Below are positions 2,237 through 56,955 of a DNA stretch of 64,000 nt, one piece after another (position 1 is the first letter of the stretch; the number at the start of each line of letters is the position of its first letter). Position numbers and translations under genes: made by a program. Origin of the DNA: Quadrisphaera setariae (lineage in GTDB: Bacteria > Actinomycetota > Actinomycetes > Actinomycetales > Quadrisphaeraceae); assembly GCF_008041935.1 (NCBI RefSeq), contig NZ_VKAC01000005.1, positions 248,001-312,000 on the forward strand, read 5' to 3'. Below the pieces are notes generated by a model that worked only from the letters and a program-made list of their open reading frames with translations, had not been told where the DNA came from and ran no database searches.

Positions 2237-2258
2237 CCTGCCGCGCCTGAGCGGCTGC

Positions 2259-2291: not shown

Positions 2292-2344
2292 TCCTCACGC
2301 CAGGGTCGACGACGACCGGATGAGCACCTGCCAGGGGAGGCGGC

Positions 2345-3787: not shown

Positions 3788-3842
3788 CGGGTCCGGCAGG
3801 CGCCGGGCCGCCGTCCGGCCGCCCCGCGCCCACACTGGGGCG

Positions 3843-4778: not shown

Positions 4779-4800
4779 CGGGGCGCTCCCTGCGGGTGCT

Positions 4801-4820
4801 TCGGGTCGCACGCGACCCGA
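4801..4820 (+). terminator. small hairpin after the glycosylase gene
   Basis: Perfect 9-bp arms (4801-4809 and 4812-4820) with a 2-base gap, 22 bases after the glycosylase stop. No T-run follows, as is usual in this GC range. Confidence 0.4.
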
Positions 4821-4922
4821 CTGGAGGCGATGATCTCCCCCTCACCCCTGCGGGTGCCTCCTGACGGTGGAGTCTGGTGGCCCCGCTACACGTCGTGCCC
4901 CGGCGAACCGTAGATTTCCGGT

Positions 4923-6326: not shown

Positions 6327-6332
6327 GGACCT

Positions 6333-6382
6333 GACGACGACGGCGGAGCCGGTGCACGCGCACCGGCTCCGCCGTCGTCGTC
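6333..6382 (+). terminator. very long perfect hairpin after ndh
   Basis: A 23-bp perfect stem (6333-6355 with 6360-6382) and a 4-base loop, 6 bases after the ndh stop. It contains GACGAC repeats. It is a likely terminator that also separates ndh from the tRNA gene 34 bases downstream. Confidence 0.8.
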
Positions 6383-6416
6383 GTCCTGAGCCTTCGACCT
6401 GAGCCGTCGTGGGCCG

Positions 6417-6493
6417 GCCCCCGTAGCCCAACCGGCAGAGGCAGGCGCCTTAAAAGCGCCTCAGTGCGGGTTCGAACCCCGCCGGGGGCACCA
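6417..6493 (+). tRNA. tRNA with UAA anticodon, type I (short variable arm), nominally Leu
   Basis: A full cloverleaf can be drawn. The 7-bp acceptor is GCCCCCG (6417-6423) with CGGGGGC (6483-6489). T8-A9 follow, then a D arm with A14, GG at 18-19 and A21. The anticodon stem GGCGC/GCGCC encloses loop CTTAAAA (6449-6455). The variable loop has only 5 bases, the T arm is GCGGG-TTCGAAC-CCCGC, the discriminator is A, and CCA is encoded. Anticodon UAA reads UUA (Leu), but bacterial tRNA-Leu normally has a long variable arm, which is missing here. The gene call is firm; the amino-acid identity is uncertain. Confidence 0.85.
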
Positions 6494-6496
6494 CCG

Positions 6497-10653: not shown

Positions 10654-10737
10654 CGTCGGCTCCTCCAGGGGGTGGGCGCTCGGGGGCGCCCGGCTCGTCG
10701 TCGAGGTGCCGTGACGCTAGGAGCGCTGGCAGGTGCG

Positions 10738-10753
10738 TGACAAACGTTTGCCA
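10738..10753. promoter_or_regulatory. LacI-type operator candidate
   Basis: The perfect palindrome CAAACGTTTG (10741-10750) with a central CpG, extended to a 16-bp near-palindrome (TGACAAACGTTTGCCA), sits 32 bases before the LacI-family start and 85 bases before the transporter start. LacI/GalR regulators typically bind such CpG-centred sites. It could serve both divergent genes. Confidence 0.7.
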
Positions 10754-10784
10754 TCCTTTGCCGCGCCCCGCCTACCCTGTCGTC

Positions 10785-11810
10785 GTGGAGCGCCCGCGCC
10801 GCCCGACCATCACCGACGTCGCCGCCGAGGCCGGCGTCGCCGCCTCCACCGTCTCGCGGGCCTTCACCCACCCAGGACGGGTCAACCAGCACACCCGTGC
10901 GCACGTGCTGGAGGTCGCCGCCCGCCTCGGGTACGCGCCGAACCCCCTGGCCCAGGCGCTGGAGTCCGGGCGCACCAGCACGGTCGCCCTGGTCGTCCCC
11001 GACATCGCCAACCCGTTCTTCGTGGGCTTCGTCAAGGGCGCCGAGCGCGCCCTCGCCAGCTCACAGCGCACCCTCGTGCTGGCTGACGGCCGCGAGAGCG
11101 CCGTCGCCGAGGAGGCCGTGGTGCAGCGCCTCCACCGCTCCGTGGACGGGTTCGTGCTCGTGGCGTCCCGTCTCGACGACGACGCCCTGCGCCGTGCCGC
11201 CGCCCTCGCCCCCGTCGTCCTCGTCAACCGGGTGACCACCGGCCTGCCCGGCGTCGTGGCCGACTACGTGGGGGGAGCCGAGCAGATCGTCAGCCACCTC
11301 GCCTCCCTCGGGCACCGCCGCGCGGTGGTGCTGGGCGGCCCGACCGGCTCCTGGTCGGGGGCCCGCCGGTGGACCGGCCTGCAGGTCGCCGCGGGGCGCC
11401 ACGGCGTGGAGGTCGAGCGCCTGGGGCCCTTCTCGCCCACCTTCGAGGCCGGCGCCGCAGCCGCGGACGCGGTGCTGGGCCTGCGGTCGGCGGCAGGCCG
11501 GGACGCGCGTCCCACCGCCGTCGTCGCCCACAACGACCTCCTCGCCATGGGCGTGCTGGCGCGCCTGGCCGAGCGCGGGGCCTCCGTGCCGGACGAGCTC
11601 AGCGTGGTCGGCTTCGACGACGTCTTCGGCGCCGCCCTGTGCTCCCCGCCGCTGACCACGCTCGCCGAGAGGTCGGAGCGGGCCGGGGCGCTCGCCGTGG
11701 ACGCGCTGCTCAGCGGCGGCGCCCCCGTGGGCCCCGGGCAGCCTCCGCAGGTGGTGCCGACGCACCTCGTGGTGCGCCGCTCGACGGGACCGGCCCCCGC
11801 CCCGGCGTGA
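10785..11810 (+). CDS. LacI-family transcriptional regulator
   Basis: 341 residues from GTG at 10785; the upstream frame extension is not coding-like. The N-terminal HTH reads TITDVAAEAGVAASTVSRAF (about 7-26) with the hinge-helix NPLAQALESGRTSTVAL. The periplasmic-binding-protein-like effector domain follows (VPDIANPFFVGFVKGAERAL, RAVVLGGPTGSWSGARRWTG, VVGFDDVFGAALCSPPLTT). It is divergent from the shikimate/quinate operon with a CpG-centred palindrome between them, so it most likely represses that operon and itself. The effector is unknown; QsuR in corynebacteria is LysR-type, so the regulator family differs here. Confidence 0.88.
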   Translation: MERPRRPTITDVAAEAGVAASTVSRAFTHPGRVNQHTRAHVLEVAARLGYAPNPLAQALESGRTSTVALVVPDIANPFFVGFVKGAERALASSQRTLVLADGRESAVAEEAVVQRLHRSVDGFVLVASRLDDDALRRAAALAPVVLVNRVTTGLPGVVADYVGGAEQIVSHLASLGHRRAVVLGGPTGSWSGARRWTGLQVAAGRHGVEVERLGPFSPTFEAGAAAADAVLGLRSAAGRDARPTAVVAHNDLLAMGVLARLAERGASVPDELSVVGFDDVFGAALCSPPLTTLAERSERAGALAVDALLSGGAPVGPGQPPQVVPTHLVVRRSTGPAPAPA

Positions 11811-43771: not shown

Positions 43772-44857
43772 GTGGCGCTCACCATCGGCATCGTCGGCCT
43801 GCCCAACGTCGGCAAGTCCACCCTCTTCAACGCCCTCACGAAGAACTCGGTGCTGGCGGCCAACTACCCGTTCGCGACGATCGAGCCGAACACCGGCGTC
43901 GTCCCGCTGAACGACCCCCGCCTGGACCGGCTCGCCGAGGTGTTCGGCAGCGAGCGCACGGTGCCCGCCACGGTGACCTTCGTCGACATCGCCGGCATCG
44001 TCCGCGGCGCCTCCGAGGGTGAGGGCCTGGGCAACAAGTTCCTCGCCAACATCCGCGAGGCCGACGCGATCTGCCAGGTGGTCCGCGCCTTCGCCGACCC
44101 CGACGTCGTCCACGTCGACGGCCGCGTCGACCCGAAGTCCGACATCGAGACCATCGCCACCGAACTGGTGCTCGCCGACCTGCAGACCCTCGAGCGCGCG
44201 GTGCCGCGCCTCGAGAAGGAGGTCAAGGGCAAGAAGGCCGACCCCGCGGTCCTCGCCGCCGCGGTCGCCGCCCAGGGCGTGCTCGACACCGGCACCACGC
44301 TCTTCGCCGGCGCTGCCGCCGCCGGCGTGGACGTCGAGCAGCTGCGCACCCTCGGCCTGCTCACCACCAAGCCGTTCCTCTTCGTCTTCAACGTCGACGA
44401 GGCCGGCCTCGTCGACGAGGCGCGCCGCTCCGAGCTGGCGGCCCTCGTGGCCCCCGCCCAGGCCGTCTTCCTCGACGCCCAGCTCGAGGCCGACCTGGCC
44501 GAGCTCGACGACGACGAGGCCGCCGAGCTGCTGGCCAGCGTCGGCCAGAGCGAGCCCGGCCTCGACATCCTCGCGCGCGCCGGCTTCGAGACCCTCGGCC
44601 TGCAGACGTACCTCACGGCCGGGCCCAAGGAGTCGCGCGCGTGGACCATCCGCCGCGGCGCCACCGCGCCCGAGGCGGCCGGTGTCATCCACACCGACTT
44701 CCAGAAGGGCTTCATCAAGGCCGAGGTCATCGGCTTCGAGGACCTCGTCCAGGCCGGCTCGGTGGCGGAGGCCCGCAAGAGCGGCAAGGCCCGCATCGAG
44801 GGCAAGGAGTACGTCATGGCTGACGGCGACGTCGTGGAGTTCCGCTTCAACGTGTAG
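43772..44857 (+). CDS. ychF: redox-regulated GTPase/ATPase YchF (OLA1-like)
   Basis: 361 residues from GTG at 43772. P-loop GLPNVGKSTLFNALTKNS, switch region DIAGIVRGASEGEGLGNKFL, and C-terminal TGS domain ending MADGDVVEFRFNV. The last codons come from the integrated element: the host form at the other end reads ...TTC CGC TTC AAC GTC TGA, and here GTG TAG, so the protein is unchanged. It serves as the attachment gene. Confidence 0.95.
   Translation: MALTIGIVGLPNVGKSTLFNALTKNSVLAANYPFATIEPNTGVVPLNDPRLDRLAEVFGSERTVPATVTFVDIAGIVRGASEGEGLGNKFLANIREADAICQVVRAFADPDVVHVDGRVDPKSDIETIATELVLADLQTLERAVPRLEKEVKGKKADPAVLAAAVAAQGVLDTGTTLFAGAAAAGVDVEQLRTLGLLTTKPFLFVFNVDEAGLVDEARRSELAALVAPAQAVFLDAQLEADLAELDDDEAAELLASVGQSEPGLDILARAGFETLGLQTYLTAGPKESRAWTIRRGATAPEAAGVIHTDFQKGFIKAEVIGFEDLVQAGSVAEARKSGKARIEGKEYVMADGDVVEFRFNV
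44839..44853. other. left attachment repeat in ychF 3' end
   Basis: GTTCCGCTTCAACGT, identical to 54785-54799. It covers the codons for the last residues of YchF (FRFNV). The flanks differ on both sides, so identity ends at the 15 bases. Confidence 0.85.
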
Positions 44858-44887
44858 TGGGTCATATCGCCGCTGGTCAGGGCGTCG

Positions 44888-45997
44888 TCAGCCCTGGCTA
44901 GTCCGCAGGGAGTCCGCAGCAGCGTTCGCGACGGCCGCCGCCAGACCACCGGCGGCGGCCCGCGTGCGGTCCTCGGCGGAGGGCCACAGGTGGCTGTAGG
45001 TGCCCAGCGTCACGGTGGCCGAGCGGTGCCCGAGGGCGCGCTGGACGGTCACCACGTCGCACCCGGCGGCGATCAGTCCGCTGGCGTAGAAGTGCCGCAA
45101 ATCGTGCAGGCGGATGCCCGCCACGCCTGCCGCACGGCAGGCGGTACGCCAGCGGTGCCCGGCGGAGTTCTGGTGCAGGGGAGCGCCATCGCTGCCCGCC
45201 AGCAGCCAGCGCGAGGCATCGGTGCCCTGGCGGTGCTCGGCGATGTAGGCGGCCAGCGCGTCGAGCAGCGCGGCGGGCACGAACACCTCGCGCTCGCTCC
45301 CGTACTTCGGGGGAGTGATCTCGACGGCGCCGCCCTCGGCGCGCTGCACCTGGCGCTGCACACGGATGGTGCGGCGCAGGAAGTCGATGTCGCCGACCTG
45401 TAGGCCGCACGCCTCGCCGAGGCGCAGCCCGGCGAAGGCCGCCAGGGAGGCCAGAACCTTGGTGGCGGCGTCGCTGGCGGCCAGGATGCTGGCGACCTCG
45501 CCCGTGGTCGGCAGGCGCATGGCGGCCTCGCGACGCCGGAGCCGGGGGAGGCGCACGCCGACGCTGGGGTCGACGGCCAGGTGGCGGTCGACGACGGCGC
45601 CGCGCAGCACCGAGCGCACGTTGCCGACGCGCGTCCTGACGGTGCCGGGAGCCAAGCCCCGGTCGGTCATCCCCTTGATCCATGCCTCGACGTGGCTACG
45701 TCGCAGTCGGGCCAGCGGTACGTCCGCGAAGGTGCAGTCGCGCATGGCGAGGTTCATGGCGGCCGTGGTGCCGCTCGCCCACGTCTGGCGCGTGGCCCAC
45801 GTCTCGTAGAAGGCCGCCAGCGTCACCTGGCCCGCCGCTGGGTCGACGTAGGTGCCTGAGACGACGGCCGTGGTCACCTCGTCGAGCCACCGCTGGGCGT
45901 CGACCTTGCGCGTGAAGTGCTTCGCGTGCTCGCGGTCGGCGTCGTCGCGGTAGCGAGCACGCCAGCGGCCGTCGGGACGGCGGGCGATGGAGGCCAT
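44888..45997 (-). CDS. int: tyrosine recombinase (phage integrase)
   Basis: 369 residues, ATG at 45997. Arm-binding N-terminal domain (ARRPDGRWRARYRDDADREH), SAM-like core-binding domain (about 60-155) and catalytic domain with Arg192, Lys231, His298, Arg301, His324 and nucleophile Tyr334. It is complete and close to the left attachment repeat, with its stop codon 34 bases from it. Translation may be coupled with the HTH gene, two bases upstream. Confidence 0.95.
   Translation of the reverse strand: MASIARRPDGRWRARYRDDADREHAKHFTRKVDAQRWLDEVTTAVVSGTYVDPAAGQVTLAAFYETWATRQTWASGTTAAMNLAMRDCTFADVPLARLRRSHVEAWIKGMTDRGLAPGTVRTRVGNVRSVLRGAVVDRHLAVDPSVGVRLPRLRRREAAMRLPTTGEVASILAASDAATKVLASLAAFAGLRLGEACGLQVGDIDFLRRTIRVQRQVQRAEGGAVEITPPKYGSEREVFVPAALLDALAAYIAEHRQGTDASRWLLAGSDGAPLHQNSAGHRWRTACRAAGVAGIRLHDLRHFYASGLIAAGCDVVTVQRALGHRSATVTLGTYSHLWPSAEDRTRAAAGGLAAAVANAAADSLRTSQG
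44901..44918. repeat. left arm-type integrase sites
   Basis: Two GTCCGCA copies 11 bases apart (44901-44907, 44912-44918), matching three copies near the right end with the same spacing. They overlap the integrase 3' end. Confidence 0.55.
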
Positions 45998-45999
45998 CG

Positions 46000-46521
46000 T
46001 CAGCGCCCCCAGCGTGCAGGGGCGCCCCCAGCGGTAGCCACCTCATCGGGGCGCAGGTAGCCGCCGGCCCTAGCAGCCGCGACCCGTCGGGCGGCCGTCG
46101 CGCGGGAGACTCCGAGAGCATCGGCGATGTAGAGGTTCGGGGCCTCCCCGAGCAGTCGGGCCACGCGGTAGCGCAGCGCGACCATCCGCAGTTCGACGGC
46201 CTCGTCCGAGCGCTCGTCGCCGTCGTTCGGAGCGAGCACGGGACCGAGGTTCTTGCTCGTGATCAGCCCACTGACGCCGCGCTTGATGACGGCAGCCAGG
46301 GGGAGTCTGCGCAGCGCCTCGCCGGAGACCTGACGCCCGTCGGCAGCGGTGACACTGACCTCGCGCGCGACGTAGCGGCCCTCGTGCAGGCGCAGGACCA
46401 CGTGCAGGTGCAGGCCGGGCTCATCGGGCAGTGTCGCGTCGACGGTGATCTCCGAGGGCACTTTCAGGCCGGGCGCGACCTGCCTCAGGTCGTCTGATCC
46501 GCTCGCCTTGACATCCTCCAT
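46000..46521 (-). CDS. element HTH protein upstream of integrase
   Basis: 173 residues, ATG at 46521. The N-terminal half is unclassified (LRQVAPGLKVPSEITVDATL); the C-terminus has a helix-turn-helix: YRVARLLGEAPNLYIADALG then VSRATAARRVAAARAGGYL. It is likely a regulator or replication-control protein of the element. It is divergent from the Xis-like gene. Confidence 0.65.
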   Translation of the reverse strand: MEDVKASGSDDLRQVAPGLKVPSEITVDATLPDEPGLHLHVVLRLHEGRYVAREVSVTAADGRQVSGEALRRLPLAAVIKRGVSGLITSKNLGPVLAPNDGDERSDEAVELRMVALRYRVARLLGEAPNLYIADALGVSRATAARRVAAARAGGYLRPDEVATAGGAPARWGR

Positions 46522-46629
46522 GCAGCCAATGATGACACGGCATTGACGATGCTGGTTGCGCGAGCCGCTTCAATGGTGTCTCATAGTGGTGAGTCGCTTA
46601 CCGCGATGCCGTCTCACCTAGGGGCTGTG
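46522..46629. promoter_or_regulatory. divergent control region of the element
   Basis: 108 bases between the HTH and Xis-like genes, less GC-rich than neighbours. It has inverted CATTGA/TCAATG (46541-46546, 46570-46575), CTCA-TAGTGG-TGAG and two GTCTCA copies. It likely holds both promoters and a repressor site. Confidence 0.4.
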
Positions 46630-46824
46630 ATGTCTGACCTGCTGACCGTCGATGAGGTTGCCGCGCTGGTTCGCACTAGCCCGAGCACGGTGCGCTACTG
46701 GCGATACCGGGGCGAGGGGCTGGAGTCCTTCCGCGTGGGGCGGCGGGTCCTGTTCCGGCGCGAGGCCGTTGAGCGGTGGATGGCGGCACAGCGCGCCGCG
46801 ACCGCCGTCGGGGGCGTCGCGTGA
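46630..46824 (+). CDS. excisionase-like MerR/AlpA-type HTH protein
   Basis: 64 residues from ATG at 46630 (GTG at 46627 also possible). LLTVDEVAALVRTSPSTVRY, then WRYRGEGLESFRVGRRVLFR and REAVERWMAAQ are typical of small winged-helix excisionase-family proteins. Probably excision factor or early regulator. Overlaps the next gene by GTGA. Confidence 0.85.
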   Translation: MSDLLTVDEVAALVRTSPSTVRYWRYRGEGLESFRVGRRVLFRREAVERWMAAQRAATAVGGVA

Positions 46825-47030
46825 CCGGCCTGGCGACTGCCGCCCTCGACGCTCGCCTGGCGGCCCTGGGCTCCCGGGGTGTCACCGAACCGCGCGCAGC
46901 CCTGGCGGAAGTCGAGCGCGCCGTTGGGCGTCGCGTGCTCGCCGACCTGGTGGAGCGCGACCACGTCAACCGCCACGACGTGCGCGTGCTGCGCGAGGCG
47001 CGCCGCCGCCTCGCGGCCCTGCCGCACTGA
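46821..47030 (+). CDS. small hypothetical element protein
   Basis: 69 residues from GTG at 46821. Helical, basic, with ALAEVERAVGRRVLADLVER. No known motif. Position between Xis-like and ATPase genes suggests early expression. Function not recognised. Confidence 0.6.
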   Translation: MTGLATAALDARLAALGSRGVTEPRAALAEVERAVGRRVLADLVERDHVNRHDVRVLREARRRLAALPH

Positions 47031-47133
47031 GCGGCACCGCCCCTGTCCCGCCGTCGGAAGCCGACGGCACCCCCGCTGCGGTCAAGTTGGCCAGCGGGTT
47101 TCTCGCCCTTGAGACACCCCTGGAGCCACCGCC

Positions 47134-48747
47134 GTGACCATCGACATGCAGAACGGGGCGCGGACCCCTAGTCCGCGCCCCGCGCCCAGCACCCCTGCCG
47201 CACCCTCAGCCGCCACCGAGAACAGTTCTCAGTCTATCTCTGACGCGCCCGAGGTCGACCTCGCCACAGCGAGCACGGGCAAGGGCGACGACGGCCCGAA
47301 GGTGGCCAGCGTCGAGCACGCCATCGAGGTGTTCGACGCCGGGTTCACCGCCTTCCGCAGCCTGGAGGGCCAGGTCTACGTGGTCGACCGCCACGACCCG
47401 AGCGCACGGCCGGTGCTCCACACCGGTGGCTCGCGCAGCCCGGCCGTCGCGCTCATCGCCGAGCGCATCCTGGCCAGCCACGACAAGTTCATGAAGGGCG
47501 AGGACCGCGCCGCCCTCGGGGACTACATCGGCTTCCGCGCCGACAAGGCCGCGCCCCGGCCGGTGCTGCTGCGTAGCGCGTGGAACGGGTGGCGCTTCAT
47601 CGTCGACATCGGCGACGACTCCGGCCGCGTCATCGTCATCACCGCTGAGGGATGGCACGCGACCGACACCGTGCCCCCCGGCGTGCACCTGCGCCGCTCC
47701 AGCGTGACTGCGGCCCTGCCCACCCCGGCCCGCACCGGCGACCTGGACGCGCTGTGGACGCTGGTGCCGGTGACCGAGGCCGACCGGCCCCTGGTGCTGG
47801 CGCTGCTGCTGTCCGCGTGGATGACCGGCACCCCGCAGCCCGTCGTGTTCATCACTGGCCCGCAGGACGCGGCCAAGACCACGACGGCGCGCTACCTGCT
47901 GCGCTTCGCGGACCCGGTCTCTAACGTGCGCGGGCGGTCGCTGCCGACCAGCGAGCCGGACTGGAAGGCGGCGGTCAACCCGTACCTGGTGGTCCTGATC
48001 GACAACGTCTCAGGCATCACCGCTGCGCAGTCAGACATGCTGTGCAAGGTCTCCACCGGCGGCGAGGCCACCGCCCGCGCCCTCTACACGAACGCCGACA
48101 CCCACATCACGTCGCTGCAGGCGTCGCTGTGGCTGACCTCCATCGGCGTCGGCGCCCTGCGCGGTGATCTCGGCTCGCGCCTGGTGCGGTTGGAGATGCC
48201 CGCCATCACCCCCGAGCGGCGCCGCTCCCTCAGTGAACTGGAGGCTGCGCAGGACGCCGCAGCCCCGGCCATCATGCGCGGGCTGCTGGACTTGGCCGTG
48301 GAAGTGCTCGGCGTGCTGCCCACCACTGACCGCACCCGGCTGCGCCACCGCCTGACCGACTTCGAGGTGCTGGTGCGCGCCATCGACTCGGTGATGGGCA
48401 CCAGCGGCGCCGACCGCCTCGCCGAGCAGGCGGGCGCGCTGGCCGAGGACGTGCTGGACGGTGACGTGGTTGCCCAGGCGCTGCTCTCGGCGCTGGAGGC
48501 GGGCCGCATCCCCGACGGCCGCATCACCCCCAAGGGGCTGCTGGACACCCTGACCGCCGAGGCCGAGCGCCAGGGCAGCGCCCGCAGCACGGGCTGGCCG
48601 CGCACCCCGCGCATCCTCACCGACCACCTCGTGCGCATCGGTCCGGCGCTGGAGTCGGCGGCGGGCGTCACCGTCACGCGCGGCCCCAAGTTGAACGGCG
48701 TGCGCGCCATGATCGTCGCCCAGCACCGCCCGGCGGTGACCCCGTGA
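47134..48747 (+). CDS. helicase-like replication ATPase of the element
   Basis: 537 residues from GTG at 47134. An unstructured Pro/Ala/Ser start (1-50) and an uncharacterised middle precede an ATPase core: Walker A-like GPQDAAKTT (242-250), Walker B-like VVLIDN (286-291), with VSTGGEATARALYTNADTHI after. The pattern resembles the SF3/D5-like ATPases found next to primases in small actinobacterial elements. With the primase it probably replicates the element after excision. Confidence 0.75.
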   Translation: MTIDMQNGARTPSPRPAPSTPAAPSAATENSSQSISDAPEVDLATASTGKGDDGPKVASVEHAIEVFDAGFTAFRSLEGQVYVVDRHDPSARPVLHTGGSRSPAVALIAERILASHDKFMKGEDRAALGDYIGFRADKAAPRPVLLRSAWNGWRFIVDIGDDSGRVIVITAEGWHATDTVPPGVHLRRSSVTAALPTPARTGDLDALWTLVPVTEADRPLVLALLLSAWMTGTPQPVVFITGPQDAAKTTTARYLLRFADPVSNVRGRSLPTSEPDWKAAVNPYLVVLIDNVSGITAAQSDMLCKVSTGGEATARALYTNADTHITSLQASLWLTSIGVGALRGDLGSRLVRLEMPAITPERRRSLSELEAAQDAAAPAIMRGLLDLAVEVLGVLPTTDRTRLRHRLTDFEVLVRAIDSVMGTSGADRLAEQAGALAEDVLDGDVVAQALLSALEAGRIPDGRITPKGLLDTLTAEAERQGSARSTGWPRTPRILTDHLVRIGPALESAAGVTVTRGPKLNGVRAMIVAQHRPAVTP

Positions 48748-49844
48748 GCCCTGCGCCCACCCTCGCGGCCGACAGGGTCGAAGCAGGGTCGAAGCAGGGT
48801 CGAACTTGCCGCCCCAGGGTCGAAGGCAGGGTCGAACTTGCGGGCCCGGAATGGCCGACTGACCTGCAGACACCCCGAAACAGGGTCGCAAGGGTCGAAC
48901 TTGAGGGGGCCTCACTACTTGGAAGGTCAGAGTTTCAGGGGTGTGCCCAGGGGGCTGACAAGGCTCCCGCAGGTTCGACCCTTGCGACCCTGCCTGGCCC
49001 GGTAGGGGCGGGCGGCTACACCCCCGGCTCCTGGCTGCACGCGCTGCTTGACCTCGTCGGCGCTGGACCGGCTGGCGGGGCGATGCGGCAGTGCCCCGCG
49101 CACGCCGACTCCGCCCCGAGCCTGCACGTCACCGTGGCCGACGACGGGCGCGTGCTCGTGCACTGCTTCGCGGGCTGCACCGTCGAGGAGGTGCTGGCCG
49201 CGCTGCACTGCTCGTGGAAGCACCTGCACGACCGCCCGTGGTTGACACCGCAGATCCACCACGCGACGTGGGGCCGGTCGGCCTGGCCGACGTTCCCGGC
49301 GTTGGACGCCCGCGCCGGTGCCCACCCGGCTGCGCGCGGCATGCGGCTGGTCAGCGTCCACCGCTACGGCGACGGGCGGTGGCTGCTGGAGCGGTGGCGC
49401 TCGCCTGGCGGCGCGAAGGACCTGCGCTGGACCACCCGGCGCGGACGCACCTACCTGCCCGGCATGTTCGGCGTGCCGACCAGCGCGCTGCCGCTGTACC
49501 GAGAGCGCGAGGTGCGCATGGCGGTCGGCGCGGGCGAGCCCGTCATCGTGGTCGAGTCCGAGTCCTCCGTCGACGCCATCTGCCGCGCAGGCACCTACGC
49601 CACGACGTGGGCGGGTGGGGCCGCCAGCCCCAACCTGGACCGCCTGGTGGCCGTCCTGCGGGGCGCGGACGTGGTGCTGGTGCCTGACCACGACGAGCCC
49701 GGCCTGGCCTGCGCCCGGCGCGTGTGGGCTGCCCTGCGCCCCGTCACGCGCTCCCTGGTCGGGGTAACCCCCGAGCCCGGCCAGGACGCCCGCGACCTGC
49801 TCGCGGCGCGCGGCGTGGCGGGCCTGCTGGGCGGTGCCCGGTGA
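48744..49844 (+). CDS. primase with zinc finger and TOPRIM domain
   Basis: 366 residues from GTG at 48744, overlapping the ATPase stop. A DnaG-like zinc site has Cys117, His120, Cys141 and Cys145 (MRQCPAHADSAPSLHV, VHCFAGC). The TOPRIM core has Glu271 (PVIVVESESSVDAI) and Asp315/Asp317 (VVLVPDHDEPG). The first about 85 residues have no motif and are encoded by an iteron-like repeat array, so the true start may be further in, for example ATG at 49083. It may prime replication at the adjacent array. Confidence 0.85.
   Translation: MSPAPTLAADRVEAGSKQGRTCRPRVEGRVELAGPEWPTDLQTPRNRVARVELEGASLLGRSEFQGCAQGADKAPAGSTLATLPGPVGAGGYTPGSWLHALLDLVGAGPAGGAMRQCPAHADSAPSLHVTVADDGRVLVHCFAGCTVEEVLAALHCSWKHLHDRPWLTPQIHHATWGRSAWPTFPALDARAGAHPAARGMRLVSVHRYGDGRWLLERWRSPGGAKDLRWTTRRGRTYLPGMFGVPTSALPLYREREVRMAVGAGEPVIVVESESSVDAICRAGTYATTWAGGAASPNLDRLVAVLRGADVVLVPDHDEPGLACARRVWAALRPVTRSLVGVTPEPGQDARDLLAARGVAGLLGGAR
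48773..48993. repeat. iteron-like array, candidate replication origin
   Basis: Six plus-strand AGGGTCGAA copies (48774, 48785, 48796, 48816, 48828, 48891) and a variant at 48882; the first three are exactly 11 bases apart. A 20-bp perfect inverted repeat, CAGGGTCGCAAGGGTCGAAC, spans 48881-48900 and 48973-48992. It lies inside the 5' end of the primase frame. Such arrays normally bind replication initiators. Confidence 0.7.
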
Positions 49845-50176
49845 GCGCGCCCGTGGTGGCCCTGTGGCTGCTCGACGGCGGCGAGCACGTCGTCGTACGC
49901 CTCAGCACCGGTGCCCGGCTGGTGCGCGCCATCGGTCAGCCCGGCGAGGCGGTGCCCGTGCTGACCGTCGAGGTCGTCTTCGACCTCAGCCACGGGGCCG
50001 GCTGGTGCTGCTACTGCGGCGCCCGCGTCGCCGTGCCCTACCGCGTCGGCGCCCTCCGGCTGCCCTGCTGCGGCGGCCGCGCCTGGCCGCTGCCCGCCTG
50101 GCCCGAGGAGGGCGCCATCGTGCGCCCCACCCGGCGCCCGGCCTCGCGCCGCACCGCGTGGCGGTGGCCGTCGTGA
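49841..50176 (+). CDS. small zinc-ribbon-like protein
   Basis: 111 residues from GTG at 49841, overlapping the primase stop. Cysteines in GWCCYCGARV and LPCCGGRAW form a possible zinc ribbon. Start VVALWLLDGGEHVVVRLSTG is beta-like. Function unknown; position suggests a replication or early-regulation role. Confidence 0.65.
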   Translation: MSAPVVALWLLDGGEHVVVRLSTGARLVRAIGQPGEAVPVLTVEVVFDLSHGAGWCCYCGARVAVPYRVGALRLPCCGGRAWPLPAWPEEGAIVRPTRRPASRRTAWRWPS

Positions 50177-50241
50177 GCCGCGCGCCGCCTGCGCTGTCGT
50201 CAGAAGCAGCCAGACCGCATTAGCAACCTCGGAGGTTCCCG

Positions 50242-50499
50242 TTGTCCACGAACACCACCGCCCTGCCTGACGCCAACGACATCGCCATCGCGCTGGCCAC
50301 CCGTGCCCGCACCGCTGGCAACGACCCGGCGCCCGTCCTCGCCCTGCTCGGCACCTACCTGGACGAGCGCCCGAGCGACGACGACCGCCGCAACCTGATG
50401 TTCGAGTTGGTCGCCGTGCAGGCCCACGCCATGGGCACTGCTGGTGACCTGCTCGACGCCATCCACGCCGCCCAGCAGGACGACGGCGGTGCGCTGTGA
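50242..50499 (+). CDS. small hypothetical element protein
   Basis: 85 residues from TTG at 50242, supported by GGAGG six bases upstream. Helical (NDIAIALATRARTAGNDPAP). It starts a cluster of structural-type genes, overlapping the next by GTGA. Function not recognised. Confidence 0.6.
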   Translation: MSTNTTALPDANDIAIALATRARTAGNDPAPVLALLGTYLDERPSDDDRRNLMFELVAVQAHAMGTAGDLLDAIHAAQQDDGGAL

Positions 50500-50630
50500 C
50501 CCGCCACGAGGCCGAGGCGCTCGGCGCCCTGGTTACCGCGCAGTTGTGCGGCCCGCGCGCCGACCTGGCGCCCAGCCTGCTGGCCGCCGCCATCTCCGAC
50601 CTGACCAGCACCACCGGAGGCACCCGATGA
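50496..50630 (+). CDS. 44-residue element peptide
   Basis: GTG at 50496 (GTGA overlap) to a stop at 50628-50630 that overlaps the scaffold ATG (ATGA). Helical, Ala/Leu-rich (EAEALGALVTAQLCGPRADL). Coupled on both sides, which supports translation. Function unknown. Confidence 0.55.
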   Translation: MTRHEAEALGALVTAQLCGPRADLAPSLLAAAISDLTSTTGGTR

Positions 50631-51145
50631 CCACCACCGACGACATGACGCCCGCCGACACCGCCGAGCAGCCCGACCCCGCCGAGGGCCAGCAGCCGGA
50701 CGACGGCGGCCGGGAGCCCGACGAGGAGGGCCAGGAGCCCGACGAGGAGGGTCAGCAGCAGCCGGAGGGCGACCGCGGCGCCCGTGAGGCGGCGAAGTAC
50801 CGCCAGCGTGCTCGCGCAGCCGAGGCCGAGCGCGACAGGCTGCGCGAGCGGCTGGAGCGCTACCAGCGCGCCGAGGTGGAGGCCATGGCTGCCGAGGTGC
50901 TGGCCGTCGGCGGCGACCTGCTGGCGGTGCGCCCCGACATGGCTGGCTACCTCGGTGAGGACGGCCACGTCGACCCGGCCAGGGTGCGCGAGGCGGCTGA
51001 GGCCGTGGCTGCCGAGCGCCCGCACTGGCGCCTCGACGACGGCGAGGAGCCCGGCCGGGCCCAGGTGCGCGGTCGCCCCAAGCCCTTCCGGAACATGCCC
51101 AAGGCCTCCGGTTGGGATGCGGTGATTTCTCCTCGCCGGGGTTAG
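50627..51145 (+). CDS. scaffold-like protein
   Basis: 172 residues from ATG at 50627 after GGAGG. Acidic, Gln/Glu/Pro-rich start with two EPDEEGQ repeats (about 31-44), then coiled coil (EAAKYRQRARAAEAERDRLR), then a short ordered end. Low-complexity acidic start plus coiled coil directly upstream of a capsid gene is typical of phage scaffolding proteins. Assignment is from layout, not homology. Confidence 0.65.
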   Translation: MTTTDDMTPADTAEQPDPAEGQQPDDGGREPDEEGQEPDEEGQQQPEGDRGAREAAKYRQRARAAEAERDRLRERLERYQRAEVEAMAAEVLAVGGDLLAVRPDMAGYLGEDGHVDPARVREAAEAVAAERPHWRLDDGEEPGRAQVRGRPKPFRNMPKASGWDAVISPRRG

Positions 51146-51286
51146 TGGAGTAATATCGGCGGTGCTCGGAGATATCGCCTGGTGCGACTCTCCGGGCACC
51201 GTCAGCCTCAGCGGGGCGACCGGGCCGAGTCTGCGACTCCCCGGCATGGAATCCATTCAGACTTCCCATGCCTTTAGGAGTTCGCG
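51146..51286. promoter_or_regulatory. leader of the capsid gene
   Basis: 141 bases with an AT-richer start (GGAGTAATATCGG) and an AT-richer end (CCATGCCTTTAGGAGTTCGCG) holding a strong ribosome site. It may carry a late promoter; no known motif. Confidence 0.35.
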
Positions 51287-52129
51287 ATGACTGCTACGAC
51301 TAAGACTTTTGCTGCTCTCACGCAGCAGCAGATCTACACGCTGATCGTGGAGCCGGTGCAGGCGCAGAGCGTCGCCCTGCAGGTTTGCACCCGCGTGCCG
51401 ATCTCCAAGCCCTCTCTTCGACTGCCGAAGATCGTCGACACCGGCACCGCCGCGTGGGTGGAGGAGGGCGCCGCCATCCCGATCTCGGATGCGGCCGCCG
51501 ACGAGGACGAGGTCACCCCGAAGAAGGTCGCGGGACTGCGCACCATCACCAGCGAACTCGCGGACGACTCCGACCCTGCTGCTGTGCAGCAGGTGGGAGC
51601 CACCATCGTGACGGCCATCGCCCTGGAGGTCGACCGCGCGTTCTTCGGCCCGACGCAGCCGAGCCCGGCACCGGCGGGCCTGCGCAGCATCGGCGCAGAC
51701 GCCAACGCGCTGGTCCTGCCCAAGACGCTCGTGAACGTCGACCCGCTCCTGGCGGCCATCGCGCACGGCCGTGACGTGGGCGCTCCGGTGACCTCGTTCG
51801 TGACGAGCCCGGCGCTGGCGCTGGAGTTGGCTACCTTGAAGGACGCCAGCGGTTCGCAGCGCGGACTGTTGCAGCCCGACCCGACGCAGCCGGATCGGAA
51901 TGTGGTCGGAGGCGTGCCCATTCTGACGAGCCCCTTCGTTGAGGCCGGCGACGTGTGGGCCATCCCGGCCTCGCGCACTTTTGGTGTCGTGCGCAAGGAC
52001 GCAAAGGTCGAGGCTTCGACTGAGTTTCTTTGGGCCAACGACTCCGTTTCTGTGCGCGGCATCATGCGTGTGGCGTTCGGAATGGTTTCTCCCTCTTCGA
52101 TCTCGCGCATCCGTCGCGCGACCTCGTAA
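51287..52129 (+). CDS. HK97-type major capsid protein
   Basis: 280 residues, ATG at 51287 with AGGAG. Segments VDTGTAAWVEEGAAIPISDA, VAGLRTITSELADDS and a C-terminal GGVPILTSPFVEAGDVWAIP fit the HK97 fold family. It has no N-terminal delta domain, so its length equals a mature HK97 subunit (about 280), consistent with a separate scaffold and no protease. Codon use differs at both ends (more T/A third positions), a sign of recent foreign origin. Confidence 0.8.
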   Translation: MTATTKTFAALTQQQIYTLIVEPVQAQSVALQVCTRVPISKPSLRLPKIVDTGTAAWVEEGAAIPISDAAADEDEVTPKKVAGLRTITSELADDSDPAAVQQVGATIVTAIALEVDRAFFGPTQPSPAPAGLRSIGADANALVLPKTLVNVDPLLAAIAHGRDVGAPVTSFVTSPALALELATLKDASGSQRGLLQPDPTQPDRNVVGGVPILTSPFVEAGDVWAIPASRTFGVVRKDAKVEASTEFLWANDSVSVRGIMRVAFGMVSPSSISRIRRATS

Positions 52130-52206
52130 CAGGCTGGGCTGCGGTGGTTGACCTCCGGCCGCAGTCCCTGCCGCCGGTTGATCGGGGTCCGTACCCGGCG
52201 GCACCC

Positions 52207-52245
52207 GGCCCACCCGTGACGCGTGAGGACCGTCGCGGGTGGGCC
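52207..52245 (+). terminator. hairpin after capsid gene, first
   Basis: 10-bp arms (52207-52216, 52236-52245) with a 19-base loop. With the next hairpin it fills the 302-base gap 52130-52431, which holds no convincing gene. Confidence 0.45.
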
Positions 52246-52254
52246 CCCGAGGCG

Positions 52255-52291
52255 CCCCGCCCGTCGTGCTGGACAACCACGGCGGGCGGGG
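52255..52291 (+). terminator. hairpin after capsid gene, second
   Basis: 9-bp arms CCCCGCCCG/CGGGCGGGG (52255-52263, 52283-52291). AT-richer sequence after it (about 52310-52400) may hold a promoter for the next gene group. Confidence 0.45.
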
Positions 52292-52431
52292 TCACTCAGG
52301 GTGGTCAATCGATCACGAGAGCGGTTCTCGAACCTCGAAACCCAGGCTGATCTCTACACGCAATATTCAACGGTGAGAGTCATTCCCATCAAGAAGGGGT
52401 CCTCCCCCCACTCCCGACAGGAGCACCAGCG

Positions 52432-52614
52432 ATGACCACCACGACGCCGGTGGGCGAGGCAGGCCGCGCACTGCTGCGCGCGCTGGAGCCCCTGGCCACC
52501 ACCGAGCACGAGCGCGCCCGCGTGCTGTGCGCCGCCCTGGGCGCCGATGAGGTCGCCGACGCCGAGCGCTGGGCCCGAGCCCGCCGCGCTGAGCACTGGA
52601 GCGAGCAGCGATGA
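52432..52614 (+). CDS. 60-residue element protein
   Basis: ATG at 52432 after CAGGAG. Helical, charged (EHERARVLCAALGADEVADA). Overlaps the next gene by ATGA. Function not recognised. Confidence 0.6.
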   Translation: MTTTTPVGEAGRALLRALEPLATTEHERARVLCAALGADEVADAERWARARRAEHWSEQR

Positions 52615-53093
52615 GTGAGCAGACCGCCCCGCTGATCCGCCGTGCTGACCTGGCCGTGTGGGCGCGCACCGAGGTGGAGCCCGACGACCGCTGGGCCACC
52701 ACCTGCATGGCGGTGGCCAGCGCCCTGGTGCGCGAGGAGGCCCGGCAGCCGGACTGGACGGTGGACACCGCGCCGGTGATGGCGCGCATCATCACCGCGC
52801 AGTGCGCGGTGCGCGCCTACCTCAACCCGCCCGAGGGCGAGGTCTCCACCAGCATCGGTCCGCTGGGCTCGCGTCTGCTGGACGCCGTGGCCGAGGGGAT
52901 CTACCTGACCGAGGCCGAGCGCGAGCGGCTGGCGGGCTACGCCCCCGCGCAGGACCGCGCCCGAGGCTCGCGCACGTGGGTGGCCTCCATGGCGTCCGAG
53001 AGCAGCCCGCCAGTGACCAGCGCGCTGTACCGGCTGCCCGAGGGCGCCGGGCCCACCGAGCCCGCCGAGGTGGTCTGGGTGGCCGAGTCGTGA
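52611..53093 (+). CDS. head-tail connector-like protein
   Basis: 160 residues, ATG at 52611. Helical N-terminal part (DRWATTCMAVASALVREEAR, VMARIITAQCAVRAYLNPPE) recalls phage neck/connector proteins of the gp6/Gp15 type. Similarity is by eye and weak. Position after the capsid gene agrees. Confidence 0.4.
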   Translation: MSEQTAPLIRRADLAVWARTEVEPDDRWATTCMAVASALVREEARQPDWTVDTAPVMARIITAQCAVRAYLNPPEGEVSTSIGPLGSRLLDAVAEGIYLTEAERERLAGYAPAQDRARGSRTWVASMASESSPPVTSALYRLPEGAGPTEPAEVVWVAES

Positions 53094-53518
53094 GCGTCCC
53101 GACCGTCGCCGAGCGCGAGGCCACCGTGCGCGAGATCTCCGAGTTGGCCGACCACGTCAGCGTCGAGGTGCTGCGCGGGGTGCTGCTGCCCGCGTGGCGG
53201 CAGTCTGGCGAGGCGACGCTGGGCACCGAGCGGTGGCTGACCCTGTTCCGCCGGGTCGGCTACGTCATCGAGACCAGCCCCGCGCCGCGACCTACCGAGC
53301 CGGTGCGGCTGTGGCGGGCGGGGCATCGAGCGCGTGGCATGGCCTGGACTTCGCGGCGCAGCATGGCCGAGCAGTACGCCACCAACGGTGAGCGGCGGGC
53401 AGCCGAGCCGCTGTGGACGACGCTGGCGCCCTCGGAGGCGCTGCTGGCCTACTCGGTGGCCGAGGCCGAGCACGTCGTCGACCCGGCGCTGCTGGGCACC
53501 ATCGAGGCGGTGCGGTGA
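53090..53518 (+). CDS. ART-like fold candidate
   Basis: 142 residues from GTG at 53090. The C-terminal part shows LWRAG (74-78), GMAWTSRRSMAEQYATN (83-99) and AEHVVDP (126-132), an order seen in phage and toxin ADP-ribosyltransferase-like proteins (R...SxS/T-like...E). The catalytic set is not complete by eye. It could modify host or phage proteins, or be structural. Low certainty. Confidence 0.4.
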   Translation: MSVPTVAEREATVREISELADHVSVEVLRGVLLPAWRQSGEATLGTERWLTLFRRVGYVIETSPAPRPTEPVRLWRAGHRARGMAWTSRRSMAEQYATNGERRAAEPLWTTLAPSEALLAYSVAEAEHVVDPALLGTIEAVR

Positions 53519-54081
53519 CCCGTCGCGCCGCCGTCGAGGCGCCCATCGACCACGGCTGGACCGACCACGCCGCCTGCCGCACCGCCACCCCCGTCGAGGC
53601 CGACGCCCTCACCGAGGTGACCAGGCTGGCCGAGGCGGCGCCGCTGGTGGCCCGCTGGTGTGCGGGCTGCCCGGTGAAGGCGCTGTGCGAAGCCCAGGGC
53701 CGGGCGCTACGCGCCGACGGCGTCTGGGGCGGTGAGGTGCTGCGCCTGGGGCGCACGTCGCGCGACCGGCGTCCACGCGCTGCATCGCCGCGCCCGGTGC
53801 CGCAGCAGCGTGCGCCGCGACCGCCGCGCGTCCGCAAGCCGCGCCCGGTCCCCGTGCAGGTGCTGGAGCCGACACCTCTCAAGCGGCGCGTACCCGGTCA
53901 GCCCCTGCGCGCGCCGCGCACCACCCCGGCCGAGCGCGAGGCCATCCGCCTGCACCTGTCGCGCGGCCTGTCGGCGACGGCCACCGCCCGCACCGTGGGC
54001 GTCAACCGCTCCACCGTCACCCTGCTGATCGAGCGCGAGAGGCTTCGGGTCAATGCCAAGGATGCAGCAGAAGAGGAGTAG
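53515..54081 (+). CDS. WhiB-like protein fused to a C-terminal HTH
   Basis: 188 residues from GTG at 53515. Four cysteines Cys21, Cys49, Cys52, Cys58 and GVWGG (69-73) give the Wbl iron-sulfur domain. After a basic Pro/Arg linker a second DNA-binding domain appears (about 136-178: TPAEREAIRLHLSRGLSATA, TARTVGVNRSTVTLLIERE). Usual Wbl proteins end soon after GVWGG. It may control late genes or host sigma-dependent promoters. Confidence 0.8.
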   Translation: MTRRAAVEAPIDHGWTDHAACRTATPVEADALTEVTRLAEAAPLVARWCAGCPVKALCEAQGRALRADGVWGGEVLRLGRTSRDRRPRAASPRPVPQQRAPRPPRVRKPRPVPVQVLEPTPLKRRVPGQPLRAPRTTPAEREAIRLHLSRGLSATATARTVGVNRSTVTLLIERERLRVNAKDAAEEE

Positions 54082-54168
54082 TCATTGCGTGGTCCGTGAA
54101 TGGCCCAAAAGAGCTATGGCGGTGTCTAGTCACGGCAAACAACACTGGTGAAACCTCAAAAAGAGGGC

Positions 54169-54198
54169 GGGGGGTTGGCGTTGCACCGCCAACCCCCC
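54169..54198 (+). terminator. terminator after WhiB-like gene
   Basis: 12-bp arms GGGGGGTTGGCG/CGCCAACCCCCC with loop TTGCAC. Confidence 0.75.
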
Positions 54199-54382
54199 GG
54201 ACCGCAACGAGTTCCTGTGGGGTCCTCATGCACGGTTCCGTCACCGTATCCGCGTCTCTATGCGTTTGGGAATCGCCCACGCGTATCGATTCTGACGCCG
54301 CCCGTGTCGTCGTTGTCATCGTCGTGGCTATCGCCACGCTCGTGCGCCACGGATGCGGACTGATCTGACGCCACTCCCAACG

Positions 54383-54412
54383 ACGGCGCCGTGCACTCCA
54401 GCACGGCGCCGT
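54383..54412. terminator. hairpin before last element gene
   Basis: 12-bp arms ACGGCGCCGTGC/GCACGGCGCCGT with a 6-base loop. Confidence 0.6.
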
Positions 54413-54439
54413 TCGTCGGTTCGGTGGGAGGCTTCAGAC

Positions 54440-54655
54440 ATGTTCTATCGACTGGTGCGCATCGACTCGCAGACCCGTGAGCCCGTGCAGGTGGCTGCCT
54501 GGCATGCCCAGGACGACCTAGACGCCATCCCGTCGGCGGCGCTGCTGGCAGACGAGGAGCGACAGGTCGGCGGCGATCGTGGTGGCTACGTGCTGGAGCG
54601 CCGGGCGGACAAGGGCTGGGAGCCCGTGCACGCCGTTGGAGGCGTAAGCAACTAA
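54440..54655 (+). CDS. 71-residue element protein
   Basis: ATG at 54440 with GGGAGG eight bases upstream. MFYRLVRIDSQTREPVQVAA, WHAQDDLDAIP, GGYVLERRADKGWEPVH suggest a small beta-rich protein. Last gene before the right attachment region; such cargo positions often carry accessory functions. Not recognised. Confidence 0.6.
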   Translation: MFYRLVRIDSQTREPVQVAAWHAQDDLDAIPSAALLADEERQVGGDRGGYVLERRADKGWEPVHAVGGVSN

Positions 54656-54662
54656 GGCGGTA

Positions 54663-54691
54663 GTCCGCACCCGGTCCGCAGCAGGTCCGCA
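54663..54691. repeat. right arm-type integrase sites
   Basis: Three GTCCGCA copies at 54663, 54674 and 54685, each 11 bases apart, same motif and phase as the left pair. Direct orientation. Confidence 0.6.
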
Positions 54692-54784
54692 AAGCACCGG
54701 ATGTAGCCAACAGCAGCCAACGCAATAAGCGCAGGTCACAGCGGTTTCCTGCGTATCCGCCCTGGTCAGCGACACGCCGTCAAC

Positions 54785-54799
54785 GTTCCGCTTCAACGT
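54785..54799. other. right attachment repeat
   Basis: GTTCCGCTTCAACGT followed by C TGA, which is the original end of ychF. Identical to 44839-44853. Confidence 0.85.
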
Positions 54800-54975
54800 C
54801 TGAGGCCATCTGCGCGTTCCCCGCTCACAGCACCTCGTCCCCCCGGCGAGAGCGGGAGAGCCGTCGCCGGCAGCGCCGTCTAGGGTTCTTGGTGACGCTG
54901 GGGTCCAGCGTCCTGGAGCGGACCCTCCGACGGTCCCGCCTCCGGTGCCAGGGAACTCGCAGAAGGAGTCATCAC

Positions 54976-55551
54976 GTGGCAGTCAGCCTCAGCAAGGGCG
55001 GCAACGTGTCCCTCACGAAGGCGGCCCCGGGCCTCACCGCGGTCGTCGTGGGACTCGGGTGGGACGCCCGCACCACCGACGGCAAGCCGTTCGACCTCGA
55101 CGCCTCGGCCATCGGCTGCCGTCCCGACGGCAAGGCGGTCTCGGACGAGCACTTCGTGTTCTTCAACAACCTCAAGAGCCCCGACGGGGCGATCGAGCAC
55201 ACCGGGGACAACGTGACCGGTGAGGGCGCCGGCGACGACGAGCAGATCAAGGTCGACCTGGCCGGCGCTCCCGCCGACCTCGACAAGGTCGTCTTCCCGG
55301 TCTCCATCTACGAGGCCGACGGCCGCGGACAGAGCTTCGGCCAGGTCCGCAACGCCTTCATCCGCGTGATGAACCAGGCCGACGGCAGCGAGATCGCCCG
55401 CTACGACCTCTCCGAGGACGCCTCCACCGAGACCGCCATGGTCTTCGGCGAGCTGTACCGCAACGGCTCGGAGTGGAAGTTCCGCGCGGTCGGCCAGGGG
55501 TACTCGACGGGCCTGGGCGGCATCGCCAAGGACTTCGGCATCAACGTCTGA
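54976..55551 (+). CDS. terD: TerD-family protein (first)
   Basis: 191 residues from GTG at 54976 with AAGGAG upstream. [60 protein letters not shown] and the repeated acidic loops are the calcium-binding TerD signature. It ends IAKDFGINV. First gene of the ter operon. Confidence 0.95.
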
Positions 55552-55650
55552 GCACGAGCGGGGGCCGCCGCCCGGCGGTGCACGAGCAGCGGCCCCGGCC
55601 CGTCGACGGCACGGCGGGCTCCTCGGTCGACCGATCACGGAGGGTGCAGG

Positions 55651-56229
55651 GTGGGCGTCAGCCTCAGCAAGGGCGGCAACGTCTCGTTGACCAAGGAGGC
55701 ACCGGGTCTGACCACGGCGCTCGTCGGGCTGGGCTGGGACGCCCGGACGACGTCGGGGAACGCGTTCGACCTCGACGCCTCGGCGCTGCTGGTCGGTGAG
55801 GACGGCCGGGTGCTCTCCGACGGGCACTTCGTCTTCTTCAACAACCTGTCGTCCCCGGACGGCTCGGTCACCCACACCGGTGACAACCGCACGGGCGCCG
55901 GAGACGGCGACGACGAGGCGCTGACCGTCGAGCTCGGAGCGGTGCCGCACGCTGCGGCCCGCATCGTCTTCGCGGTCTCCATCTACGACGCCGAGTCCCG
56001 CGCGCAGTCGTTCGGGCAGGTGCGCAACGCGTACATCCGGGTGGTCGACAGCGCCGACGGCACCGAGGTGGCGCGGTACGACCTCTCGGAGGACGCCTCC
56101 ACCGAGACCGCGATGATCTTCGGTGAGGTCTACCGCCACCGGTCGGAGTGGAAGTTCCGGGCCGTCGGCCAGGGCTACACCTCCGGCCTGGCCGGGATCG
56201 CGAAGGACTTCGGCGTCAACGTCGGGTGA
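55651..56229 (+). CDS. terD: TerD-family protein (second)
   Basis: 192 residues from GTG at 55651. Very similar to the first ([53 protein letters not shown]), a tandem duplication. TerD proteins form calcium-dependent complexes at the membrane with TerB/TerC types; none of those is seen here. Confidence 0.95.
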
Positions 56230-56262
56230 CCCGCCAGCGCGCTGGCAGAGACGAGGCTGCAC

Positions 56263-56955
56263 GTGCCGATCGACTACACCAAGCGACCCGCCCAGCAGCC
56301 GCCTGCCCCGCAGCAGGCGGCTGGCAGCACGACCGGGCAGGCCCCGCGCAAGGTGACGCTCACCAAGTCCGCGCCCACCATCTCGCTGACCAAGCGGGCG
56401 GGTGCCGGAGGCGTCCTGCGCGTCAACCTCTCCTGGACCGCCAGGTCGGGAGACCAGGGCGGCTTCTTCCGGCGCCGTGAGCCCGACATCGACCTCGACC
56501 TGGGCTGCCTGTACGAGTTCACCGACGGCTCCAAGGGCGTGGTGCAGGCGCTCGGCGGCTCCTTCCGGGCCGGCGTCGCCGGGGTGCCGACGCCGGTGGT
56601 GTGGCTCGACGGGGACGACAGGTCCGGCACCCGCGAGGGCGGGGAGAACCTCCACGTCGACCTCGCGCACTCAGCCCTGGTGCGGCGCGTCCTCGTCTTC
56701 GCCTACATCTACGAGGGCACCCCGAACTGGGCGGGCGCGAACGGCGTGGTCACCCTGACCCCGCCGGAGGGTCCGCAGGTGGAGGTGCTCCTCGACGAGC
56801 CCCGGGCAGGGGCCCGCACCTGCGCCATCGCGCTGCTCACCCCTTCGGCCGGGGCCCTGTCGGTGCAGCGCGAGGTGCGCTACGTCGACGGCGCGCAGCC
56901 CGAGCTCGACGCCGCCTACGGCTGGGGCATGCGCTGGACCAGCGGCCGCAAGTGA
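56263..56955 (+). CDS. TerA-like tellurium-resistance family protein
   Basis: 230 residues from GTG at 56263. Pro/Gln-rich start (1-30), then VTLTKSAPTISLTKRAGAGG, DIDLDLGCLYEFTDGSKGVV and VLVFAYIYEGTPNWAGANGV, a TerA/TerD-like fold with ENLHVDL in place of the usual acidic loop. Probably another subunit of the Ter complex. Confidence 0.85.
   Translation: MPIDYTKRPAQQPPAPQQAAGSTTGQAPRKVTLTKSAPTISLTKRAGAGGVLRVNLSWTARSGDQGGFFRRREPDIDLDLGCLYEFTDGSKGVVQALGGSFRAGVAGVPTPVVWLDGDDRSGTREGGENLHVDLAHSALVRRVLVFAYIYEGTPNWAGANGVVTLTPPEGPQVEVLLDEPRAGARTCAIALLTPSAGALSVQREVRYVDGAQPELDAAYGWGMRWTSGRK

Follow-up and report, generated by a model that had tools for sequence, protein, structure and literature searches.

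The 64,000-nucleotide stretch of Quadrisphaera setariae DNA analysed here (contig NZ_VKAC01000005.1, positions 248,001–312,000; hereafter the window) contains an integrated element of 9,961 bp, which occupies 44839–54799 within the 3′ end of the gene ychF. A first-pass annotation, made from the letters of the window, had described a complete element of about 9.96 kb in ychF and read it as a phage satellite that supplies the shell itself and takes the remaining parts from elsewhere. Its extent was established here to the base by a perfect 15-bp direct repeat, GTTCCGCTTCAACGT, which was the sole shared stretch of 11 bp or longer between 43772–44900 and 54301–55000; by our own arithmetic, the chance of such a shared repeat in these two stretches is approximately 0.001–0.02. 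At the left copy, the FRFNV end of ychF is retained and followed by the stop codon TAG, and CTGA directly follows the right copy. Both ends of the element also carry TCCGCA repeats spaced by 11 bp, and such repeats at both ends are the pattern of integrase arm sites; three more TCCGCA and one TGCGGA are scattered elsewhere in the element when both strands are counted. Like a phage satellite, the element is integrated and possesses its own integrase and attachment (att) sites. The features on which its interpretation depends are as follows.

44839–44853, no strand: attL core GTTCCGCTTCAACGT, inside the ychF 3′ end; 15-bp perfect direct repeat
44888–45997, minus strand: tyrosine integrase (PF00589, E 8.1e-26; phrog_1, E 5.9e-59)
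44902–44918, no strand: putative left integrase arm-type sites, 2 × TCCGCA at 11-bp spacing (44902, 44913)
46630–46824, plus strand: Xis-like excisionase (PF12728, 2.7e-14; TIGR01764, 2.1e-10)
47134–48747, plus strand: Rep, probable replication initiator/helicase (P-loop by eye; 28% to Zeta1847 gp37)
48774–48982, no strand: probable replication origin, 7 iterons AGGGTCGAA, 6 direct and 1 inverted
48999–49844, plus strand: primase (Toprim; zinc motif by eye; phrog_6088, 4.5e-22)
50627–51145, plus strand: scaffolding protein (phrog_4708, 1.2e-5)
51287–52129, plus strand: HK97-type major capsid protein, 280 residues (PF05065, 8.8e-25; TIGR01554, 6.6e-27)
52432–52614, plus strand: 60-residue protein, candidate short protein resembling the small terminase subunit (TerS), after the capsid gene, where loci L077 and L078 have TerS
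52611–53093, plus strand: probable head–tail adaptor (Ad1), 160 residues (phrog_137, E 1.8e-10, residues 2–116)
54664–54691, no strand: putative right integrase arm-type sites, 3 × TCCGCA at 11-bp spacing (54664, 54675, 54686)
54785–54799, no strand: attR core GTTCCGCTTCAACGT, second copy of the 15-bp perfect repeat

The integrase, excisionase, primase, scaffold and capsid assignments made in the first-pass annotation were all backed by these profiles. The scaffold is 44% identical to a frame of locus L021 (8e-17) and 40% identical to a protein of phage WillG (8e-15), both encoded just upstream of capsid genes. The capsid protein aligned to positions 107–380 of the 385-position model TIGR01554, so that the leading HK97 part is missing; this start, together with a separate scaffold gene upstream, suggests that a maturation protease is perhaps unneeded. 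Its structure prediction was poor (mean predicted local distance difference test score, pLDDT, 41.1). The probable head–tail adaptor and the iteron array after rep were missing from the earlier gene list, and with this adaptor the element appears to supply more than a bare shell. An hhalign comparison with the adaptors of relatives gave an in-register match of low strength (E 0.011, with a probability of 3.7%; controls 0.66 and 0.4). The same program gave E 0.039 and a probability of 1.3% for the 60-residue protein against the TerS profile (control 0.74), and this protein had no PHROG match even at E 5; its assignment as TerS-like is suggestive only. A TerS hidden in the element was sought with a hidden Markov model (HMM) of the relatives’ TerS, which found none at E<5.

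Profile searches of the 16 chosen open reading frames (ORFs), among which only the integrase, Rep, primase and capsid protein reach 280 residues, detected neither a large terminase nor any portal, protease, tail or lysis gene. The GC-rich DNA of the element also holds long overlapping frames of up to 553 residues; ten of these were considered as hidden packaging genes and discarded, as none matched a PHROG or Pfam family at E 0.01. Nor did any ORF of the element of at least 45 residues match the portal or terminase profiles of the relatives. The absence of these genes, already stated in the earlier description, held for the 16 ORFs and the ten overlapping frames, and the full packaging genes, whose detection by profile search it had named as evidence against its reading, were not found in the element. 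The virion gene set is incomplete, as in phage satellites.

The replication module is centred on Rep, which had no good family match (no PHROG; Pfam AAA_16 only at E 0.04) and is 28% identical (E 9e-22) to gp37 of phage Zeta1847, annotated as DNA helicase or primase. A replication role is assigned to Rep because of this similarity and the iterons that follow its gene. The window has eight copies of GGGTCGAA, and seven are at 48775–48981, directly 3′ of rep. The open frame of the primase starts at 48744, and its coding signal begins near 48999, which is taken here as the putative start. Third-position GC was 0.66 before 48999 vs 0.94 after it, which suggests that the iteron stretch directly after rep is non-coding. 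Relatives of Rep were detected in 39 of the 394 genomes of the class, the host’s own included. Within 600 bp past the matched part of rep, at least five copies of a 9-mer were present in 9/19 relatives, three copies in 3/19 and two or fewer in 7/19. The corresponding control maxima were 3 upstream (where one of 20 loci was too short), 2 in-gene and 3 in shuffles, and no five-copy array occurred in the upstream or in-gene controls. The pairing of iterons with Rep suggests where the replication origin lies in the Rep family found in these 39 genomes. Homologues of the integrase or excisionase lie near rep in 9/19 relatives and a homologue of the primase in 1/19. One iteron, CTGCGTCAC or its overlapping reverse form, is common to L067, L073, L074 and L075 downstream of rep.

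Relatives of the capsid protein were detected in three of the five other genomes of the genus and in at least 16 of the 394 class genomes, own included, a lower bound since six candidates were scored per genome. Among the capsids compared, the nearest were those of L010 and L011 (approximately 40% identity over most of the protein) and of genome G402 (48%, for a piece of 109 residues); within the phage collection, Alyssa1 had the most similar one (31%). Scanning IMG/VR with the window capsid alone or the adaptor alone gave no relative, and an alignment search of it gave 41 loci, of which L093, L094 and L096 were used in the scoring and L093, L094, L095 and L097 in the tree. Among 34 capsid sources scored, 25 (the window and 24 others) were without terminase and portal by the profiles used, both genes were present in eight (L083, L085, L088–L092 and L096), and one, L080, had a portal fragment. 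As the profiles were built from the scored loci themselves (five for portal, four for terminase), the independent positives for both genes number only three (L088, L091 and L096). Two pairs of sources share a genome (L076 with L090, and L078 with L079). Left out of the scoring were L010, L012, L095 and L097 (short or partial), L082 (a fragment), L016 and L017 (the same loci as L007 and L008) and 36 other IMG/VR hits. When phrog_12 and phrog_2 were applied to the genomes behind most loci, the neighbourhoods of the terminase-free capsids gave no strong match. Most of the sources without terminase and portal have a scaffold match together with the capsid, and an adaptor was identified by profiles in 10 of the 24 others. 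In a capsid tree of 37 rows, in which L080 is labelled terminase-free (its portal fragment, described below, not being counted), the window grouped with the terminase-free set with a support of 38/40; at this support we do not claim a single origin, and the placement of the window is provisional. The terminase-bearing rows were more clustered than in shuffles (3 changes vs 6.6).

Among the closest known counterparts of the element are Alyssa1 (11,078 bp) and WillG (10,866 bp), which were deposited as complete phage genomes. They belong to a Mycolicibacterium aichiense phage group with ten others alike (OR387110–OR387121, approximately 11 kb), whose gene content is taken here from these two. 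Like the element, they are 10–11 kb in size and carry an integrase, a scaffold, an HK97 capsid protein (30–31% identical to that of the element) and an adaptor, with no large terminase or portal. Their only ‘terminase’ gene is small, and that of WillG matches the small subunit. Unlike the element, in which a TerS, stopper, tape measure and serine integrase were not found, they have all four. In the excerpt of PMC10654092, phiRv1 and phiRv2 are placed among elements resembling phage-inducible chromosomal islands (PICIs) that have an integrase and a capsid gene, a loose class. The element has both genes and shares its small integrated form with these and the candidate Mycobacterium PICIs; as that excerpt describes them, it differs in its probable adaptor, iteron origin and ychF site. 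The phiRv type proposed in the first-pass annotation is a tentative label, matched here at the level of gene content. Capsid-forming PICIs (cf-PICIs) likewise have their own capsid and connector genes and no tail genes, but carry a portal, a protease and both terminase subunits, according to the excerpt of PMC10690885. The element has the major capsid protein and a connector identified by one PHROG only; portal, protease and both terminase subunits were not found in it, apart from the weak 60-residue TerS-like candidate. Within the same excerpt, the Streptomyces phage satellites MulchRoom and MiniFlayer are also actinobacterial and have their own scaffold, capsid and adaptor; they carry a portal and terminase subunits but lack an obvious replicase, which is the reverse of the element. 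The Staphylococcus aureus pathogenicity islands (SaPIs) and P4, as generally known and as outlined in that excerpt, are similarly integrated and have their own replication module, but remodel a helper capsid and encode no shell. In the titles and abstract openings of the papers that the literature searches listed, no capsid-bearing satellite was described without a portal and large terminase; within the library searched, no paper linked M. aichiense, satellite and phage and none linked Quadrisphaera and prophage. The kind is already known from the candidate Mycobacterium PICIs, the phiRv elements and the cf-PICIs; as a variant of it, the element is unusual in how labour is divided.

We interpret the element, with moderate confidence, as a capsid-bearing phage satellite that would build a shell and neck ring and borrow the portal, motor, tail and lysis functions. 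The corresponding proposal of the first-pass annotation fits the gene content and the relatives, and needs amendment in that the probable neck gene had been overlooked. The integrase, whose family is clear, would recombine attP with the ychF 3′ end, leaving the YchF protein intact, and the excisionase, equally clear in family, would assist excision. Once a helper phage has entered, the circle formed by excision may replicate with its own Rep and primase, starting at the iterons. The scaffold and capsid protein would then form a small shell without a maturation protease, which would be seeded by the helper portal and filled by the helper large terminase. The adaptor, perhaps with the products of the next two genes, could connect this head to the helper tail, and release would proceed through the helper lysis genes. 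Known satellites either modify the capsid of the helper or, in the case of cf-PICIs, provide a complete head that includes portal and motor. More tentatively, the element may represent a third satellite strategy, in which it gives the shell, scaffold and adaptor and takes the portal and motor, so that hybrid heads would be formed round a foreign portal vertex. If true, capsid elements without terminase and portal, which recur in several actinobacterial families, would be a common lifestyle there; if such elements are mobile, the head is divisible at the portal, which bears on portal–shell choice and on the choice of helper by satellites.

Several points weigh against a satellite. Excision, replication, particles and helper are all deduced from the gene content, and we know of no satellite that builds a shell round a foreign portal. 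The adaptor was called by phrog_137 only; it had no Pfam or NCBIfam family and no match in the phage collection, an HMM of the relatives’ adaptors missed it, and its structure model was poor (mean pLDDT 41.5). TerS is present in 14 of the 24 other sources without terminase and portal, and was not found in the element. The scoring profiles span one portal and one terminase family only, and L013, L015, L018, L022, L084, L093 and L094 are cut by a contig end or are whole short contigs. Locus L080 (genome G286, 8744–11044) retains a 198-residue portal fragment beside its scaffold and capsid frame. Finally, phrog_12 and phrog_104 portals were absent from the host genome (4.91 Mb, 33 contigs, 99.95% complete), in which the two matches to phrog_2 terminase were weak (E 6.2e-5 and 2.9e-4) and similar to those in the genus-mates. 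The phrog_104 search was positive in 7/7 genomes from outside the genus and at each of the seven capsid loci tried in them; it was used because a portal-alignment search of the genus, which found nothing, had no positive control. At seven terminase-bearing capsid loci, phrog_2 found four (L085, L090, L091 and L092) and missed three (L083, L088 and L089), so that a helper prophage with other kinds of portal and terminase may have been missed. With no tested portal family and only weak terminase matches, any helper would be exogenous or overlooked. One genus-mate, G009, has a terminase and portal elsewhere in its genome; this prophage was considered as a helper and set aside, since it showed only a weak integrase match to the element genes (E 9.5e-5) and otherwise no clear similarity.

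The main rival, which we regard as somewhat unlikely, is that the element is a remnant of a cf-PICI or prophage: having lost its terminase and portal, it would no longer spread in particles, although its integrase and replication genes may still work. Related capsids stand beside terminase and portal in the eight sources named above, TerS is not clearly present in the element, and the host genome yielded no helper-like prophage. Gene decay in relatives, which the first-pass annotation had named as evidence against its reading, was encountered in one of them, L080, which has a portal fragment only and is probably a decayed element; portal loss through decay thus occurs in the group. Against a remnant, the 16 chosen ORFs of the element contain no internal stop, its att core and arm repeats are intact, and most of its genes overlap or abut. 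A further 24 sources lack the same genes, including the two genomes of approximately 11 kb deposited as phages, and this recurrence and its presence in Alyssa1 and WillG argue against simple decay. A capsid protein that mixes into or replaces the helper shell and forces a small head, in the manner of Ccm of SaPIbov5, which the excerpt of PMC8569155 presents as a capsid-protein homologue redirecting helper capsid assembly, is quite improbable here, given that the element has its own scaffold and probable adaptor and that the capsid is found together with a scaffold match in most terminase- and portal-free sources. That the element is retained because it benefits the host, through regulation or capsid-based defence, and not because it spreads is the least plausible reading by far: the element has a WhiB-like gene, the Rep family also occurs beside integrase and excisionase homologues elsewhere, and in eight regions viewed no capsid-like protein was noticed by eye (no profile search was made there), but no defence family was matched among the eight proteins scanned.

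The remaining genes of the element, with their family matches, are as follows.

46000–46521, minus strand: helix-turn-helix (HTH) protein, candidate repressor (DUF6214, 3.4e-5, just under the cut-off; weak HTH matches)
46821–47030, plus strand: small protein, an open frame without convincing family
49841–50176, plus strand: CxxC protein, zinc-ribbon-like by eye, no family
50242–50499, plus strand: small protein without convincing family
50496–50630, plus strand: small protein, no family
53090–53518, plus strand: ADP-ribosyltransferase-like by eye (best family match E 0.018, function unknown)
53515–54081, plus strand: WhiB-like domain and C-terminal HTH, candidate regulator (PF02467, 1.7e-5, above the cut-off; phrog_12112, 9e-9)
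54440–54655, plus strand: small protein, no family

The HTH protein is a candidate repressor from its gene position, and the likeness of the 53090–53518 product to ADP-ribosyltransferases rests on what we take to be a motif of that family. The WhiB–HTH gene is the last of the operon. Between it and attR, at 54168–54199, lies a strong minus-strand hairpin that has a T-tail and may block leftward transcription. A terminator scan gave 2 terminator-like sites vs 1.7 expected, and a promoter scan gave 0 vs 0.2 expected.

The ychF site was compared with that of the five other genomes of the genus, among which it looks to have been used at least twice. In 6-kb stretches of G008 and G011, ychF ends with FRFNV-TGA and has a single core copy; the ychF end of G012 was not located. 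In G010 (L145, reverse strand, 2029–8303), the full 15-bp core occurs twice, 6,260 bp apart; transposase-like frames were recognised by eye between the cores and an integrase was not; this is a second insertion at the site, apparently without an integrase. In G009, the core is present once and three TGCGGA repeats with 11-bp spacing lie next to ychF, with no integrase recognised within 19.9 kb; adjoining these arm-like repeats is a defence-island-like run (L144, 1749–11026) with helicase- and ATPase-like products by eye. The element proteins had no match in the ychF stretches of G009 and G010. To the right of the element, the window at 54976–56955 holds two adjoining genes with closely similar translations, TerD-like by eye, followed by a third related-looking gene.

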